Origin: Lysobacterales bacterium | GTDB lineage: Bacteria > Pseudomonadota > Gammaproteobacteria > Xanthomonadales > Xanthomonadaceae | NCBI GenBank assembly: GCA_017302035.1 | Contig: JAFLEA010000004.1 | Location: 1-64,000 of the forward strand | DNA: 64,000 bases | Direction: 5' to 3' | Made by a program: the position numbers and the translations under genes | Shown: one piece after another, positions 8,692 to 29,893 of the stretch | Position numbering within the stretch: the first letter of the stretch is position 1 | Layout: every line of letters begins with the position of its first letter | The notes under the pieces: model-generated | Seen by the model: the letters and a program-made list of their open reading frames with translations, nothing else | Database searches by the model: none | What the model was told of the DNA's origin: nothing

Positions 8692-10188
8692 ATGTCCGTC
8701 CTCGCCCCCCTCGCCCCGCTGCGCGCCCACGCCGGCCAGCGCCTGACCTCCGGCCTGGACGACGCCAGCGTCGAACGCCTGGCCGCGAACCACCCGGACC
8801 TGGCGGCGGCGATCGCCGCCGCCGCGGCCGAGTACGCCAGCGTGCGCGAAGCCGCCGCCGACCTGCTCGATCTGGACGAAGCCGCGCAGATCCAGGCGCT
8901 GCAGGCCGGTTACGTCAACTTCTACGCCGACGACGCTGTGACTCCCTATGTCGCCCTGGTCGCGCGCGGACCGTGGGTGGTCACGCTCAAGGGCGCGGTG
9001 CTGTACGACGCCGGCGGCTACGGCATGCTCGGCTTCGGCCATGCGCCGCCGGCGGTGCTCGAGGCGATGTCCAAGCCGCAGGTGATGGCCAACATCATGA
9101 CCCCGAACCTGGCCCAGCGCCGCTTCGCCGAAGCCCTGCGCCGGGAGATCGGACGGACCCGCGGCGGCTGCCCGTTCGAGCGCTTCATGTGCCTGAATTC
9201 CGGCTCCGAAGCGGTGGGCCTGGCCGCGCGCATCGTCGACATCAACGCCAAGACCCAGACCGACCCGGGCGCGCGCCATGCCGGCGCGACCATCAAGCGG
9301 GTCGTGGTCAAGGGCAGCTTCCACGGCCGCACCGACCGCCCGGCGCTGTACTCCGATTCCAGCCGCGGCACCTACGACAAGTTCCTGGCCAGCTACCGCG
9401 GCGAGAACAGCGTGATCACCATCGCGCCCTACGACGTGGCCGCGCTGCGCCAGGCGTTCGCCGACGCCGAGGCCAGGGGCTGGTTCATCGAGGCGGTGTT
9501 CCTGGAGCCGGTGATGGGCGAAGGCGACCCGGGGCGCTCGGTGCCGGTGGAGTTCTATACCGCCGCGCGCGAGGCCACCCGCGCGCACGGCAGCCTGCTG
9601 CTGGTCGATTCGATCCAGGCCGGCCTGCGCGTGCACGGCGTGCTCTCGCTGGTGGACTACCCCGGCTTCGAGGGCGCGGAGGCGCCGGACATGGAGACCT
9701 ACTCCAAGGCGCTCAATGCCGCCCAGTTCCCGCTGTCGGTGCTGGCGACGACCGCGCATGCGGCCGCGATCTACCGCAAGGGCGTCTACGGCAACACCAT
9801 GACCACCAATCCGCGGGCGCTGGACGTGGCTTGCGCCACCCTGGGCCTGCTCACCGAGGAGGTGCGCGCCAACATCCGCGCCCGGGGCGCGCAGGCGATG
9901 CAGAAGCTGGAGCAGCTGAAGGCGGACCTGGGCGGCGCGATCACCAAGGTCCAGGGCACCGGCCTGCTGTTCTCCTGCGAGCTGGCCCCGGAGTACAAGT
10001 GCTACGGCGCCGGCTCCACCGAGGAATGGCTGCGCCGGCACGGGGTCAACGTGATCCACGGCGGCGAGAACTCGCTGCGCTTCACCCCGCACTTCGGGAT
10101 GGACGAGGAAGAGCTGGACCTGCTGGTGTCGATGGTCGGCCGCGCCCTGCGCGAAGGGCCGCGCCGGCAGCAGTCCGCCGCGGCCTGA
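8692..10188 (+). CDS. class III (PLP-dependent) aminotransferase
   Basis: Predicted pyridoxal-phosphate aminotransferase of the ornithine/lysine omega-aminotransferase group, 498 aa. Visible features are the cofactor-phosphate region NSGSEAVGLAARIVD, the SFHGRTDRPA motif, a PLP-ring Asp in LLVDSIQAG, and the Schiff-base lysine Lys339 in TYSKALNAAQ. The ~85-residue N-terminal extension before the YVNFY region is part of this subfamily as I know it. ATG at 8692 follows a GGAG. Divergent from an Lrp-family regulator, which suggests amino-acid-responsive control. The amino donor cannot be told from sequence. Confidence 0.88.
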   Translation: MSVLAPLAPLRAHAGQRLTSGLDDASVERLAANHPDLAAAIAAAAAEYASVREAAADLLDLDEAAQIQALQAGYVNFYADDAVTPYVALVARGPWVVTLKGAVLYDAGGYGMLGFGHAPPAVLEAMSKPQVMANIMTPNLAQRRFAEALRREIGRTRGGCPFERFMCLNSGSEAVGLAARIVDINAKTQTDPGARHAGATIKRVVVKGSFHGRTDRPALYSDSSRGTYDKFLASYRGENSVITIAPYDVAALRQAFADAEARGWFIEAVFLEPVMGEGDPGRSVPVEFYTAAREATRAHGSLLLVDSIQAGLRVHGVLSLVDYPGFEGAEAPDMETYSKALNAAQFPLSVLATTAHAAAIYRKGVYGNTMTTNPRALDVACATLGLLTEEVRANIRARGAQAMQKLEQLKADLGGAITKVQGTGLLFSCELAPEYKCYGAGSTEEWLRRHGVNVIHGGENSLRFTPHFGMDEEELDLLVSMVGRALREGPRRQQSAAA

Positions 10189-25266: not shown

Positions 25267-25313
25267 AATGGTGGCCGGGGACGGAATCGAACCGCCGACA
25301 CGGGGATTTTCAA
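25267..25313 (-). repeat. att site distal to the integrase (old tRNA-Phe 3' half)
   Basis: 47 bp identical to 29816-29862, covering the tRNA-Phe 3' half from the anticodon loop through the acceptor stem and CCA. It is not a functional tRNA: the sequence beyond 25313 does not continue into the 5' half. It marks the displaced 3' end of the original gene. Confidence 0.95.
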
Positions 25314-25458
25314 GGCACACACCTCGGCCTGACTTGTTAAATAAAATCAGCCACTTAGCGCGCTTGCCGCCCATGTTTTTGGCAACTCAATGCATCGACG
25401 TTTCGGTTTCACTCAAGGCGCACTACCGATAAGTTGCCCAGCCACCGCGGCGGCGGCC

Positions 25459-26898
25459 TCATCGTTTGCTAGCGGACTTCTGGACATTGCCATCGATGAT
25501 CACGAACTCCGAAGGCTTAAGTCCTTCCGCTAGCACAGCAGAGCGAGCTTCGCTTAGCTTCCCCATCTTCTTTGAGGTTAGGCCACCCACGTCGATAATC
25601 ACGTAGTAGGCGAGCAGAGTGCCCTCAGAATTGCGATAAGCATCCAATTGCTTGGTGTAGCCATCCACAAGCTTGGGATTGGATGATCGCTTTAGTTCAA
25701 TAAGAACCTTGGCGCTGGCACCACTCGACACCTTGAAGTCCACCGGACCTGCCCCACCGTCTGATTCCGGCGAAATATCCAGATCATTGGCTTCGCAGTA
25801 CGACAAAGCAACGGCATAGAAAAGACGCTGCATGGCCTTCTCCATCCGAGCATGCTCATGCCTGTCGTCCCAAAGCTCCTTCCACAGCCCCCGGTCCTCA
25901 ATGAGTTCTTTGAACTTATCGATTATTGCCCGAGCGACTTCGTCAACCTCTTTCTGGCCAAGCTTCTTGCCCGAATAAAGCTTTAGATCGAGAGGGACTT
26001 CCTTTGCGATAGATCTTCGGATATTTGCCGGATAAATCTCACCGCGATGATCATTGTCAACGTCGTAGGACTCATCAGCTGCGTTCCGAAGTACTTCAAG
26101 CAGAGTCTCGAAGGACTTCTTACTTCGCATAGCGTTTCGACGAATCTCGTCTTTGTCCTTTCGAGTCTTCGCTTTCCATATCTCTCCGATATTAGCGTTG
26201 ACACGATCACGCAGGTCAGCCGTTTCCTTTGCAGCAGCCCCGACCGAGCTCCAGTCAGACGCAATCGGCAAGTCTCTGACGATGTCTTTGGGAACAAGCA
26301 GAACCGGCTCCGTCTCCTTCAGTGGATTTGGCGGAAGTTGATGGGTGGCTCCATTTAGGACGAATTCCTTGGTGCCGACACCGAGATCCTTACACTTCCG
26401 GCTCGTAAATTTCGCTAAACATTCGATGACAATGTTTGTCGTCATGTCGCTTATGCGGTCGGCTCCAACACCCTCCTCAAACAGAGCCAGGGCGACGAAG
26501 AGATTTGGGTTCTCGACGCCGAGGTCTACAACCTCCTTTGCTGTTGCGAGCATATTCCCCGCAAGCTTTTCCCCAAAGCCTGAGCCCCCTTCGCCAGATG
26601 AGTAACCAAGATGGGTGTAACCAACCTCATGAAACGAAATCTGCTTCTTGGCCGCTCGCCACGCGACGTCATCGATTTTTTTCGAGGCCGCCAACAACTC
26701 AATTATTTGGCCGAAACGTAGCTCGTATGCAGCCGTCGCGCAGTCGCGAAACTCCTTATCTGACGCTTCTGCCAAGAGCAGTGGATCTATGAAGAGGTTG
26801 GTGTCGCAATTTAGCGTTACGTCGATGGCGCCAGCTACAGTAATTGCGTCCTGATCTATCTCCCACATCATCGATAACGTCAGTGGTTCAACACCCAT
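25459..26898 (-). CDS. element cargo protein with PD-(D/E)XK nuclease-like C-terminal domain, function unknown
   Basis: A 479-aa soluble protein from ATG 26898, preceded by a purine-rich AGGGTGGGG; the frame extends to a GTG at 26928. The C-terminal ~120 residues contain a PD-(D/E)XK-like core: PVD with Asp387, then Glu401-x-Lys403 in KVLIELKRSS, on predicted beta strands. A YTKQLDAYRNS helix and the YYVIIDVGG strand follow. The N-terminal ~200 residues (LNCDTNLFIDPLLL, DLFVAL-like NLFVALALFEEGVGADRISDMTTNI) form a second domain I cannot name. A charged helical middle joins them. It is the only passenger gene of the element and divergent from rep. A defence nuclease is a reasonable guess, not a demonstrated function. 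Confidence 0.7.
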   Translation of the reverse strand: MGVEPLTLSMMWEIDQDAITVAGAIDVTLNCDTNLFIDPLLLAEASDKEFRDCATAAYELRFGQIIELLAASKKIDDVAWRAAKKQISFHEVGYTHLGYSSGEGGSGFGEKLAGNMLATAKEVVDLGVENPNLFVALALFEEGVGADRISDMTTNIVIECLAKFTSRKCKDLGVGTKEFVLNGATHQLPPNPLKETEPVLLVPKDIVRDLPIASDWSSVGAAAKETADLRDRVNANIGEIWKAKTRKDKDEIRRNAMRSKKSFETLLEVLRNAADESYDVDNDHRGEIYPANIRRSIAKEVPLDLKLYSGKKLGQKEVDEVARAIIDKFKELIEDRGLWKELWDDRHEHARMEKAMQRLFYAVALSYCEANDLDISPESDGGAGPVDFKVSSGASAKVLIELKRSSNPKLVDGYTKQLDAYRNSEGTLLAYYVIIDVGGLTSKKMGKLSEARSAVLAEGLKPSEFVIIDGNVQKSASKR

Positions 26899-27297
26899 AC
26901 CCCACCCTGTTGAAAGATTGCTGGGCACGATAGTCGCACACTATTGACAGTGCATGAATTATGCGGCAGGGTCTCCGGGCCGCAGTCGCTCTTTCCCAAC
27001 CTAGGTCGAATCCCCGCCAGCACTATCGGCGCGGGTTGTGCGCATCCAGACAAGACGAGATGAGCAGCCATACGACCAGATAGCCGCCAAGAATGCGCGG
27101 TCGCACCTGCCCCACGACGAGGGCCGAAGAGATAGGTGGACCGATAATGCGAGGGGTAGCGCGCGGCGCCCCAAACGTAGAGATTAGGCTCCTACACACA
27201 GAATTCATAAGCACACCACGCACGCAAGGGCATTGCCCGGGCGGCGTCGCCCTATGTGAAAAGCGGCCGTGGCTTCCCAAAACACTTGGAGGTCACC
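26899..27297. other. intergenic region between cargo and rep genes
   Basis: About 400 bp with no convincing gene. It separates two divergent genes, so it should hold both promoters. Small palindromes occur near the rep end: GGGCATTGCCC immediately followed by a GGGCG...CGCCC hairpin, about 27228-27252. A replication origin next to a Rep gene would be expected in this kind of element, but I cannot identify one. Confidence 0.4.
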
Positions 27298-28563
27298 ATG
27301 TCACCGCAACACAACGAACCCCTGTTTTCCGACGCTGCCGTTTCGACGGAGGCGCAGACGACTGCGCAGGAAGCGAACTCCGCCGGCACGGCGGAGCGCG
27401 CGCGCTGCGCTGCGGGTGCGCTACCCAGTATCACAGCACCCGCAAACTGCATTCGACCGTATCGGCACGGCGTAGACAGCCTGTATCTGTCCTTCCCCGG
27501 GGCCATCGAGCCCGAGCTGGCCGTCTGCCTGCAGGAGTGCAAGCTCAAGGCCCAGGACAGCAACGAGCACGTCATCGCCATGGCCGGCATCGGCATCGGG
27601 GACCATCAGTTCCTCGTCCTGCCGCGCGGTCGTGGGCGGTTCGCCTTCGTCCTTGAGGACAACTGGTTCTCCATCCAGCTGGCGAACGCTTCGGCCGGGC
27701 AGCTTCCGCTGGCGCTGGTACAGGTCCGGAGCGAGTACCTGACCGCTGTCGGCCCGGATGAGGCCATCCGGGTGATTTCCGGGCTGGTCGCCGGGATGGG
27801 CCGGGTGGACGGCCCGGGCCGGATCAGCCGCATCGACCTGTACGCCGATTTCGGGACTGCCTTCCCGCTCGCCGATTTCCCCGGCAGCCACTGGGTCAAG
27901 CGCAGCAAGAAGCGCTCGATCCATGAAGAGTGTGACGAGGTGACCGGCATCTCCTTCGGCAGTGGCAACGAGGTCAGTGCCCGGCTGTACGACAAGACCC
28001 GGGAGTTGCTGAAGTCTGGCAAGGACTACCTGAAGCCGCTTTGGGCCTCGGAAGGCTGGGACGGCCACAGCCAGGTCTGGCGGATGGAGTTCCAGATCCG
28101 GCGGGAAGGCCTGCCCGACCCCATGAAGGACGCGGCTGCGGCCTCGCTGGAGTTGTGCGGCAACCTCTGGCGCTACCTGTGCACGGACTGGCTGCGGCTG
28201 GCGGTGCCCTCGGACTCCGACGACACGCGCAGTCGCTGGCCCACCCATCCGCTCTGGGACGACCTGTCCCGGCTCTGGGACATCGACCCGGAAGCCCCGC
28301 CCCTGACCCGGGTCGAGAAAACCCGCGCACCGACCGACGACTACCTGTTCCGCGCCGGGATCGCCGGGCTGACCTCGTTCATGGCCCGGGAGGGCATCGA
28401 GGACGTGGGCGAAGGCCTCGGGGAATTCCTACACGCCTTGGAGGCCTACTACGACAATCCGGCCCGGCAAATTCCGGAGGGATTGCAGGAGTACGCCTAC
28501 CGCAAGTCGCGGCTGAAGGCCCGTCGCTACAACGTGCGGATGGATGCCCATGGACAGGACTAA
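27298..28563 (+). CDS. replication initiation protein (Rep_trans / phage Cf1-type)
   Basis: A 421-aa protein from ATG 27298, four bases after GGAGGT. It has the replication-initiation-factor pattern known from filamentous phages (Cf1/phiLf) and rolling-circle plasmids. HGVDSLYLSF lies at ~58-66, GRISRIDLYADF at ~174-185, and a G-S-G-N-E-V-S-A-R-LYDKTREL block at ~221-237. The QVWRMEFQIRREGL block follows. It would nick one strand at an element origin to start rolling-circle synthesis. The first 50 residues are Ala/Thr-rich and probably disordered. It is followed after 3 bp by the HTH gene and then the integrase, forming one operon. Confidence 0.85.
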   Translation: MSPQHNEPLFSDAAVSTEAQTTAQEANSAGTAERARCAAGALPSITAPANCIRPYRHGVDSLYLSFPGAIEPELAVCLQECKLKAQDSNEHVIAMAGIGIGDHQFLVLPRGRGRFAFVLEDNWFSIQLANASAGQLPLALVQVRSEYLTAVGPDEAIRVISGLVAGMGRVDGPGRISRIDLYADFGTAFPLADFPGSHWVKRSKKRSIHEECDEVTGISFGSGNEVSARLYDKTRELLKSGKDYLKPLWASEGWDGHSQVWRMEFQIRREGLPDPMKDAAAASLELCGNLWRYLCTDWLRLAVPSDSDDTRSRWPTHPLWDDLSRLWDIDPEAPPLTRVEKTRAPTDDYLFRAGIAGLTSFMAREGIEDVGEGLGEFLHALEAYYDNPARQIPEGLQEYAYRKSRLKARRYNVRMDAHGQD

Positions 28564-28566
28564 GCC

Positions 28567-28977
28567 ATGCGCACATACGACCTGCACGAAGCGGCGCACT
28601 TCCTGCGCATGTCCCCGGCCGTCCTGCGCCTGCACGCCCGCCAAGGCCGAGTCAAAGCGGCCAAGCCGGGCAAGCGCTGGGTGTTCCTCGAAGACGACCT
28701 TGCTGCGTATCTCGGTCAGCTTTACGCTGGCAGACGGCAAGCGCCGCTAAGTGGCTCCAATCAGGAGAAATCCTTATGGGGCTATACCAACGCGGACCTG
28801 TCTGGTGGGTCGATCTCACCACGCCGAACGGCGAGCGAATACGCCGCTCTACTGGGATTGAGGACCGAGCGCTCGCGCAGGAGTACCACGACCGGCTCAA
28901 GGTCGGCTTCTGGGAAGAGCAACGGCTCGGGGTCAGACCCCAGCGGAGCTGGCAGGACGCCGCCGTCCGGTGGGTGA
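28567..28977 (+). CDS. excisionase-like helix-turn-helix protein
   Basis: A 136-aa frame whose first ~60 residues form a MerR/excisionase-type winged helix: YDLHEAAHFLRMSPAVLRLHARQG, then AKPGKRWVFLEDDLAAYL. It starts 3 bp after rep and precedes the integrase, the usual place for an excision/regulatory factor. The residues after ~68 lie out of frame over the first 202 bp of the integrase gene and look unstructured (Ser/Gly/Arg-rich). The stop therefore falls unusually far inside int. The functional part is probably only the N-terminal domain. Confidence 0.75.
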   Translation: MRTYDLHEAAHFLRMSPAVLRLHARQGRVKAAKPGKRWVFLEDDLAAYLGQLYAGRRQAPLSGSNQEKSLWGYTNADLSGGSISPRRTASEYAALLGLRTERSRRSTTTGSRSASGKSNGSGSDPSGAGRTPPSGG

Positions 28978-29774
28978 AGGAAACCCGCGACAAGCGGTCG
29001 CATGGAAAGGACATAGCCAAGTTGCGCTGGCTGGATCGCTACCTCGGGCACCTGCAACTGTCGCAGGTGACCCGGGATGTGATCGACCAGATCGCCGAGC
29101 GGAAGACCCGGGAATCGAGTCCAAGCAACGCGAACCGCTACCTAGCCTTGATCCGGGCGATCCTGAGGCGCGCAAGGGACGAATGGGGGTGGCTGGAATC
29201 CATCCCCAAGGTCCGGCTGTACCGGGAACCGAAGGGGCGCATCCGCTTCCTGTCCCCGGATGAGGCGCGGCGGCTCCTGAGCGAGCTGCCGCCCCACCTC
29301 CGGGACATGGCGCAGTTCGCGCTGGCCACGGGCCTGAGACAGCGCAACGTGTCTTTCCTGCGGTGGGAGCAGGTGGACATGGCCCGCCGTGTCGCGTGGA
29401 TCCATCCAGATGAAGCCAAGGCCGGACGGGCCATTGGCGTCCCACTGAACACCTCGGCCATGGATGTGCTGGGGCGGCGGGACGGGCAGGACGCCGAGCA
29501 CGTGTTTACCTATGAAGGTAAGCCTGTGGCGCGGTGTTCGACCCGGGCATGGAAGCTGGCGCTACAGCGCGCCGGGATCGAGCGGAGCTTCCGTTGGCAC
29601 GACCTGCGGCACACCTGGGCCTCGTGGCACGTGCAGAACGGAACCCCGTTGCAGGAGCTGATGGAGCTGGGCAGTTGGGCCAGCTACGAGATGGTCCTGC
29701 GGTACGCACACCTTGCGGCGGATCACCTTCGCGGGGCGGCGTGCCGGATCGACGGCACACTGGCGACACAATAG
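28776..29774 (+). CDS. tyrosine-type site-specific recombinase (integrase)
   Basis: A 332-aa integrase from ATG 28776, with AGGAGA 7 nt upstream. The N-terminal arm (MGLYQRGPVWWVDLTTPNG) resembles phage integrase arm-binding domains. A SAM-like core-binding domain spans ~60-150. The catalytic domain has Arg188 (TGLRQRN), His275-x-x-Arg278 (WHDLRHTWASWH) and nucleophile Tyr310 (LRYAHLA). It ends ~40 bp from the att repeat within tRNA-Phe, so it almost certainly catalysed this integration. The open frame upstream of 28776 is only an out-of-phase reading of rep. Confidence 0.96.
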   Translation: MGLYQRGPVWWVDLTTPNGERIRRSTGIEDRALAQEYHDRLKVGFWEEQRLGVRPQRSWQDAAVRWVKETRDKRSHGKDIAKLRWLDRYLGHLQLSQVTRDVIDQIAERKTRESSPSNANRYLALIRAILRRARDEWGWLESIPKVRLYREPKGRIRFLSPDEARRLLSELPPHLRDMAQFALATGLRQRNVSFLRWEQVDMARRVAWIHPDEAKAGRAIGVPLNTSAMDVLGRRDGQDAEHVFTYEGKPVARCSTRAWKLALQRAGIERSFRWHDLRHTWASWHVQNGTPLQELMELGSWASYEMVLRYAHLAADHLRGAACRIDGTLATQ

Positions 29775-29795
29775 AAAAAGGGCCTTTCGGCCCTT
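29775..29795 (-). terminator. element-supplied terminator for tRNA-Phe (bidirectional with int)
   Basis: AAGGGCC/GGCCCTT stem with a tetraloop-like centre, followed on the minus strand by TTTTTC. It is downstream of the rebuilt tRNA-Phe and also just after the integrase stop. It replaces the chromosomal terminator left at 25212-25244. Confidence 0.75.
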
Positions 29796-29815
29796 CTCGC
29801 TAACCACCTGATTTA

Positions 29816-29862
29816 AATGGTGGCCGGGGACGGAATCGAACCGCCGACACGGGGATTTTCAA
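29816..29862 (-). repeat. att site at the integrase end (3' half of the intact tRNA-Phe)
   Basis: 47-bp perfect copy of 25267-25313. The element brought this 3' half in, so the tRNA remains complete after insertion. The identity ends at the anticodon loop, indicating strand exchange in or near it. Confidence 0.95.
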
Positions 29863-29893
29863 TCCCCTGCTCTACCAACTGAGCTACCCGGCC
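29818..29893 (-). tRNA. tRNA-Phe (GAA)
   Basis: 76-nt cloverleaf including encoded CCA. The acceptor stem GGCCGGG pairs with CCCGGCC, the D-arm is GCTCAGTTGGTAGAGC, and the anticodon loop TTGAAAA has anticodon GAA with stem GGGGA/TCCCC. The T-arm is GGCGGTTCGATTCCGTC. Its 3' half is the att repeat of the integrated element. Confidence 0.97.

Follow-up and report, generated by a model that had tools for sequence, protein, structure and literature searches.

The window analyzed here, a stretch of 64,000 nucleotides at the start of contig JAFLEA010000004.1 of a Lysobacterales bacterium (assembly GCA_017302035.1), contains a compact element between two direct repeats at an intact tRNA-Phe (GAA) gene (29818–29893, minus strand). 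The left attachment repeat, attL (25267–25313), and the right one, attR (29816–29862), are identical in 47 of 47 bases, and the spacing of the two copies, 4,549 bp, corresponds to the element length; the runner-up among 20 direct-repeat families listed in the window had 20 nt and 85% identity. Within attR, 45 bases belong to the rebuilt tRNA-Phe, of which they form nucleotides 32–76, and two bases lie beyond it. The repeat does not reach beyond the anticodon loop, a common place of strand exchange by tyrosine integrases. Judging from the identical copies, insertion restores the 3' half of tRNA-Phe, the integration site. Between the repeats, a cargo gene (25459–26928, minus strand, 489 aa) points leftward, whereas rep (27298–28563), xis (28567–28977) and int (28776–29774) are all encoded rightward on the plus strand. 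What appears to be a terminator-like hairpin separates int from the 3' end of the rebuilt tRNA (29780–29799; like both repeats, listed without strand). The G+C content is 0.517 in the cargo gene, 0.667 in rep, 0.663 in int and 0.703–0.717 in the flanks. An earlier analysis made from the letters of the window alone (the sequence-only reading) had proposed an integrative element at tRNA-Phe, with 47-bp repeats equal to the tRNA 3' half, a full tyrosine integrase beside the rebuilt tRNA and a divergent cargo gene of lower G+C content, and each of these statements was borne out. The 3' end of int (29754–29771) contains two short repeats of the GGC(G)ACAC type, which resemble the GGCACAAA repeats of a second host family and are possible arm sites for Int.

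An empty tRNA-Phe site in relatives, which the sequence-only reading had called for, was found in two congeners (G007 and G015), in which the left flank leads into a single tRNA-Phe core and this directly into the right flank. In the remaining congeners, the tRNA was located at a different distance from or orientation to the left-flank gene, or beyond the fetched locus, and no clean empty site was obtained; no fetched congener locus contained more than one copy of the tRNA core. Both repeat copies of the window match the tRNA-Phe of the element-free congener G010 (L055, position 3694) over 45 bases. The tRNA-Phe genes of other congeners differ from the repeat by at least two bases, with a changed T-stem pair in L029.

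The protein encoded by int (332 aa) matched Phage_integrase (PF00589) with an E-value of 4.8e-26, and its residues R188, K215, H275, R278, W301 and Y310, which we take to be the catalytic set, were invariant in 21 sequences. The 136-aa open reading frame (ORF) of xis overlaps the start of int and encodes an excisionase-like protein with an HTH_17 domain (PF12728, E 3.6e-10) in its first 50 aa, in agreement with the Xis-like helix-turn-helix (HTH) gene of the sequence-only reading; the first 62 aa of the ORF were used as xis queries. Rep, a Rep_trans-like protein of 421 aa that starts from an ATG behind GGAGG, contains the motifs R229-x-Y231-x-K233 and R262-x-E264. Among 19 element Reps, these five residues and R178, D180 and D184 were invariant, while the first 40–60 N-terminal aa were variable. 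The RxYxK tyrosine motif together with RxE constitutes the pattern of Rep_trans initiators, and both parts are kept in Rep. The large protein of pTHEBA.01, a Mesotoga plasmid of 1,724 bp, has the same eight residues; it is most likely the replication initiator because only one other gene is annotated on this plasmid. In total, 11 plasmid records contained Rep relatives, 1.7-kb plasmids among them. We infer from this homology that Rep is a rolling-circle initiator; the self-replication after excision claimed by the sequence-only reading is likewise suggested by the residues shared with the plasmid protein, and thus by homology only. Comparison of Rep with the sequences of solved structures yielded chance-like matches only. 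Rep_trans proteins occur in filamentous phages too. Rep relatives were absent from 50,697 phage records and were not found among viral contigs searched with peptide patterns, and an inovirus origin was set aside because no phage record matched Rep. None of the four element proteins matched Pfam families for packaging or conjugation, as the sequence-only reading had anticipated.

Relatives of rep showed a patchy distribution: they were detected in 1/17 genomes at the level of the genus, 7/395 at that of the family, 7/398 in the order and 15/369 in the class. These samples are not independent of each other, since they overlap, and four of the 15 class-level matches were weak or unrelated and not used as elements (a distant Rep without the backbone in G983, locus L107, and marginal matches in G764, G790 and G880). 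Including the window, 15 complete elements with both repeats were obtained from five families, ranging from 4.4 to 8.7 kb: the window element with 4,549 bp, L013 (5,975 bp), L014 (5,556 bp), L015 (5,147 bp), L016 (5,638 bp), L019 (5,627 bp), L072 (4,410 bp), L073 (6,087 bp), L074 (7,399 bp), L075 (6,887 bp), L076 (4,454 bp), L098 (8,657 bp), L100 (7,018 bp), L101 (5,734 bp) and L102 (6,366 bp). Left out were L017, L082, L097, L099, L104, L105 and L106, which reach a contig end, and L103, for which one repeat was found. Eleven of the complete elements are assigned to tRNA-Phe (among them L014, in whose locus the tRNA was not found), three to tRNA-Lys and one to tRNA-Arg; members at tRNA-Met exist but are incomplete or lack a second repeat. 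The gene order rep-xis-int is constant in all 15. By these comparisons, the window element is a member of a family that is spread across the class and has the backbone (X)-rep-xis-int, with X being a further gene described below, and an exchangeable cargo slot. The prediction that relatives would carry the same int-rep pair at tRNA-Phe with different cargo held as well. We recognized no description of this backbone family in open-access full texts, although one may have appeared as a preprint or behind a subscription. Right at the right repeat of L014, an apparent second integrase-bearing element, judged by eye, begins (9416–9900), suggesting that tRNA-Phe may be used in tandem.

Family matches identified known antiviral systems in 4/15 elements (a raw count). 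L016 encodes two proteins of a type VI retron, the HTH protein (E 4.1e-35) and the reverse transcriptase (E 5.6e-73); the RNA part of this retron was not found by Rfam. Restriction-modification systems are present in L073, with a BglII endonuclease and an MT-A70 methylase, and in L100, where two C5 methylases accompany an HNH_2 protein, and L101 carries AbiL, consisting of AbiLi and AbiLii. Candidate defence models matched in four more elements, namely the window element, L019 (PDC-S31, weak, E 2.4e-6), L098 (PDC-S02, E 1.4e-63) and L102 (PDC-S02, E 1.6e-14); a few small ORFs lay outside the cargo scan. Thus, the statement of the sequence-only reading that such slots carry anti-phage genes applies to some relatives. 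The cargo of L013 consists of an HNH protein only. Second left-end copies were observed inside the cargo region of L013 (position 4274) and, as a further repeat copy, about 1 kb beyond the element in L100, 8,091 bp from the tRNA; these extra copies suggest growth by cassette accretion.

The cargo protein of the window, which possibly starts at an internal ATG at residue 11, matched phrog_30194 over the PHROG collection with an E-value of 1.3e-141, and the PADLOC candidate model PDC-M36A matched its residues 23–222 only (E 3.8e-12). Neither entry names a function, and no paper using the term PDC-M36 was found. Apart from these two, nothing named matched the N-terminal half. At the C-terminus, D397...E411-x-K413...Q427 was invariant across seven aligned proteins (the cargo and six homologs with 23–62% identity). 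The predicted order of helices and strands fits an alpha-beta-beta-beta-alpha-beta core at pLDDT values of about 45–80, with the C-terminal part alone being usable, and the D...ExK...Q pattern corresponds to that of PD-(D/E)XK nucleases. Searches against the sequences of solved structures gave chance-like matches only. A homolog with 43% identity is encoded beside a CAP12/Pycsar TIR gene, and the tail genes on its contig were judged by eye to be P2-like. The neighbours of a homolog with 62% identity are a TIR gene and what reads by eye as an integrase, and a tRNA-Thr is close by. The cargo protein may combine a nuclease part with a half for sensing or targeting, and an anti-phage nuclease is its most likely identity.

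In 12/15 elements, a gene X encoding 246–288 aa is located upstream of rep, and all twelve copies are linked by BLAST at E 0.001. Copies from L013, L014, L016 and L019 matched nothing in Pfam above the cut-off, and those from L013, L014 and L073 nothing in PADLOC. In the window, L015 and L076, tblastn gave short matches only (E 0.036 or worse), while L016 and L102 served as positive controls, and X was not found elsewhere in the window's own genome. Where others have X, the window element has a non-coding region upstream of rep (26979–27297, no strand assigned) that it shares over about 320 bp with the L015 element. The stretch near 27000 was present in 2/247 family genomes, its own and that of L015, and an exact pattern derived from it was not found in viral contigs. 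It holds a GGTCGAATCCCCGCCAGC segment that resembles a tRNA or tmRNA 3' arm. As to a tRNA- or tmRNA-like remnant, Rfam gave no match even when E-values up to 1 were admitted.

The phylogenies of the two modules disagree. In the Int tree (21 rows), L072, L074 and L076, all at tRNA-Lys, group with a support of 0.756, L073 and L075, both at tRNA-Phe, with 0.986, and the window element with L017 (0.971), whereas the Rep tree (19 rows, without the truncated L076 and L106) unites L072 with L073 (0.999), L074 with L075 (0.995) and the window element with L013 (0.991). The correspondence between Int clade and tRNA type is imperfect: L099 (tRNA-Met) is placed among the Phe integrases, L106 (tRNA-Met) with L098 (tRNA-Arg), and L102 (tRNA-Phe) stands apart. 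Genome G992 contains elements at tRNA-Arg and tRNA-Met (L104 and L105 on contigs C1 and C4) with reps that are about 95% identical over their overlap; near the rep/xis boundary the identity falls to about 60%, and xis-int differ. The contigs of both loci end at rep. From these patterns, the rep and xis-int modules appear to reassort.

A conserved 20-bp site occurs as an inverted pair in the element. The left copy (25349–25368, plus strand), of the AGCCACTTAcGGCGCTTGCC type with two mismatches, is located some 25–45 bases inside the left repeat, and the inverted copy (28736–28756, minus strand) shortly before int, where xis and int meet. In a survey of two families, that of the host and one other (f7), the left copy was present in 11/11 elements with a left end, in nine by script (at most 5 mismatches) and in L075 and L076 by eye, and the inverted right copy in 12/12 scanned elements with 0–5 mismatches. 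The left copies read GGTGTTTG in the second family and GGCGCTTG in the first, and the right copies vary partly likewise. Among four complete class-level elements, a left copy with at most 5 mismatches was present in L102 only, in which the right copy was not found. Five shuffles of the window gave one match at up to 4 mismatches, and L019 had one match outside the element at 5 mismatches; single copies with 5 mismatches prove little because of these control matches, and the pattern rests on position. Conservation of the left copy outside of genes suggests a protein-binding site, and the pair is probably an accessory binding site for Xis or Int.

We consider it very likely that the window contains a compact integrative element that cycles by Int/Xis-mediated excision, rolling-circle replication by Rep and reinsertion, with a cargo that is likely directed against phages. 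Recombination in the anticodon loop by Int with Xis would release the element as a circle, Rep would nick this circle and thereby start rolling-circle replication, and Int would reinsert a copy into tRNA-Phe of the same or a new cell. The paired sites would most likely be bound by Xis (or Int), which may couple excision to the expression of int, and the cargo, as a likely anti-phage nuclease, would pay for the upkeep of the element in its host. Transfer between cells might occur via a helper, in phage particles or through a conjugation channel, or by DNA uptake.

Several results weigh against this interpretation. Excision, replication and movement are predictions from the genes. The match of Rep to the Pfam model Rep_trans (PF02486) was weak (E 0.016), and its 15.3 bits are below the cut-off of 29.6, so that of the Rep_trans initiator claimed by the sequence-only reading the active-site pattern is conserved while the family score falls short. 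AlphaFold produced a poor model of Rep with a pLDDT of 37 from 6 sequences. No replication origin was identified, and the DNA folding of four stretches was no better than that of shuffles (z -0.50 to +0.97). For the cargo protein, Foldseek returned nothing at E 0.001 or better; the weak top rows included PspGI, Can2, Cap4 and viral endonucleases but unrelated dehydrogenases too, and the nuclease fold rests on the motif and the predicted secondary structure. Across the family, 7/15 elements (L013, L014, L015, L072, L074, L075 and L076) had neither an established nor a candidate defence match, and the defence counts (4/15 known, 4/15 candidate) are raw numbers. L076 (8072–10803) carries a methyltransferase and an unknown, secreted-looking protein as cargo together with a truncated rep and no X, an example of cargo outside defence. 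X, present in 12/15, is absent from the window element as well, which may therefore be a derived or impaired form; the minimal element of the sequence-only reading is indeed compact, but it is minimal partly through the absence of X. Relatives with the same genes and no flanking repeats had been named as grounds for refutation: repeats were found in 15 of the 16 members, the window element among them, whose available sequence extends far enough in both directions, while for L103 at tRNA-Met a search with 18-bp seeds gave no second repeat.

How the element moves between cells is the point on which other explanations differ. A phage satellite is conceivable, if short of probable: an infecting phage would trigger excision and rolling-circle replication and package the concatemers, as for the PICMIs of Vibrionaceae. 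The window element belongs to the same size class and likewise combines an integrase, an HTH_17/AlpA-type protein, one replication protein, direct repeats and defence cargo, and its lack of packaging genes is shared with PICMIs. In the excerpts of PMC12595487, comparable defence-bearing tmRNA islands were moved by a jumbo phage. Against this stands the absence of Rep relatives from the phage records and the pattern-searched viral contigs; the helper phage or plasmid envisaged by the sequence-only reading is hypothetical. There was no PF03237 terminase in the host's own genome, although this search covered that terminase family alone and a helper need not be resident.

An integrated small plasmid that replicates locally, spreads by natural transformation or generalized transduction only and uses integration as a safe harbour seems unlikely. 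The occurrence of Rep relatives on 1.7-kb plasmids and the lack of any match of an element gene to known transfer families speak for it, but several host families, several tRNA targets and the exchange between rep and xis-int suggest a more efficient route. We are still more doubtful about an integrative mobilizable element (IME), in which Rep would act as a MOBT-like relaxase and the circle would exit through the conjugation channel of a co-resident element. Relaxases related to Rep_trans are described for Tn916 and ICEBs1, and putative ones for many streptococcal IMEs, in the consulted parts of PMC5704250. In the window's own genome (G000), an ORF on contig C13 (45414–46526) resembles a coupling protein (PF02534; 25.8 and 20.8 bits at a cut-off of 20.1) and is a possible conjugative helper. 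However, MOBT relaxases combine Rep_trans with a HTH domain (PMC11389934, in part), which Pfam did not find in Rep, the four element proteins include no Pfam match to a coupling protein, and the MOBT cases in the consulted parts of PMC5704250 and PMC11389934 are all from Firmicutes. A fixed genomic island, that is, a defective relic that has lost excision, is highly improbable, since the missing X of the window element and the truncated rep of its relative L076 are outweighed by perfect 47-bp repeats, by uninterrupted reading frames of int, xis and rep in which residues are conserved, and by the absence of rep from 16 other genomes of the genus.

Our preferred reading of a cycling integrative element places the window element near several known systems, none of which it matches in full. 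The excerpts of PMC10803314 describe PICMIs as islands of about 6 kb with direct repeats, which encode an integrase, AlpA/HTH_17 and a single replication protein, have no packaging genes that were identified, and carry restriction-modification, retron or PARIS systems in a slot; PICMI115, of 6,110 bp, is described there as rolling-circle replicated. The pair of integrase and AlpA (PF05930 or PF12728) that defines them in this source was found here as PF00589 and PF12728. PICMIs differ by a DUF3987/DUF5906 primase and a fis site, in contrast to the Rep_trans-like initiator and tRNA site of the window element, which gave no primase match, and helper packaging was shown for PICMIs, whereas the window element is known from its genes. 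The tmRNA islands I23, I44 and I55 of Pseudomonas and phage defence elements share a tyrosine integrase, AlpA, direct repeats, defence cargo and the lack of transfer genes, but the islands are larger (common region about 18 kb), have a RadC/YqaJ/inovirus Gp2-like core and occupy a tmRNA site (PMC12595487). The plasmid pTHEBA.01 shares the related large protein, at 21% identity over the alignment, and has no integrase, Xis or cargo. AICEs of Actinobacteria use tRNA sites, and the window element likewise has int, xis and, by homology, a rolling-circle rep at a tRNA. Elements of the pSAM2 type resemble it in their rep-xis-int module, rolling-circle initiator and module exchange (PMC3218068, in part). 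However, AICEs have an FtsK-like Tra, for which the four element proteins showed no FtsK/SpoIIIE-type Pfam match, and their RepSA has its relatives in the phiX174/pC194 groups and not in Rep_trans. MOBT IMEs of Firmicutes, related to Tn916 and ICEBs1, are similar in being integrated, partly at tRNA genes, and in having a Rep_trans-related protein (PMC5704250, in part), and differ from the window element in host class, coupling protein and the HTH that accompanies Rep_trans, as the window Rep showed a weak Rep_trans match without a detected HTH. The nearest described systems are thus PICMIs in lifestyle, AICEs in gene order and MOBT IMEs in the replication protein, and the window element lacks a defining feature of each.

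Features that the sequence-only reading had not anticipated are the existence of a wider family, the additional gene X, the inverted pair of 20-bp sites and the exchange between rep and xis-int. We see an even chance that these elements form an unnamed, class-wide family of 4–9 kb rolling-circle integrative elements, in which xis-int would be a swappable tRNA-address cassette, rep would be exchanged separately and the left slot would hold one immune system or another set of cargo genes, so that the elements would act as shuttles of single antiviral systems, with X serving control or helper exploitation. Many antiviral systems are located in small islands of unexplained movement. With a backbone of three or four genes, clear ends, empty sites, several host families and at least four complete immune systems, excision, replication and transfer become directly testable in this family. 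The cargo of the window element is a candidate nuclease from a candidate defence family without described function, and in other members, whatever fills the slot that separates the left repeat from X or rep may provide a handle for finding new defence genes.

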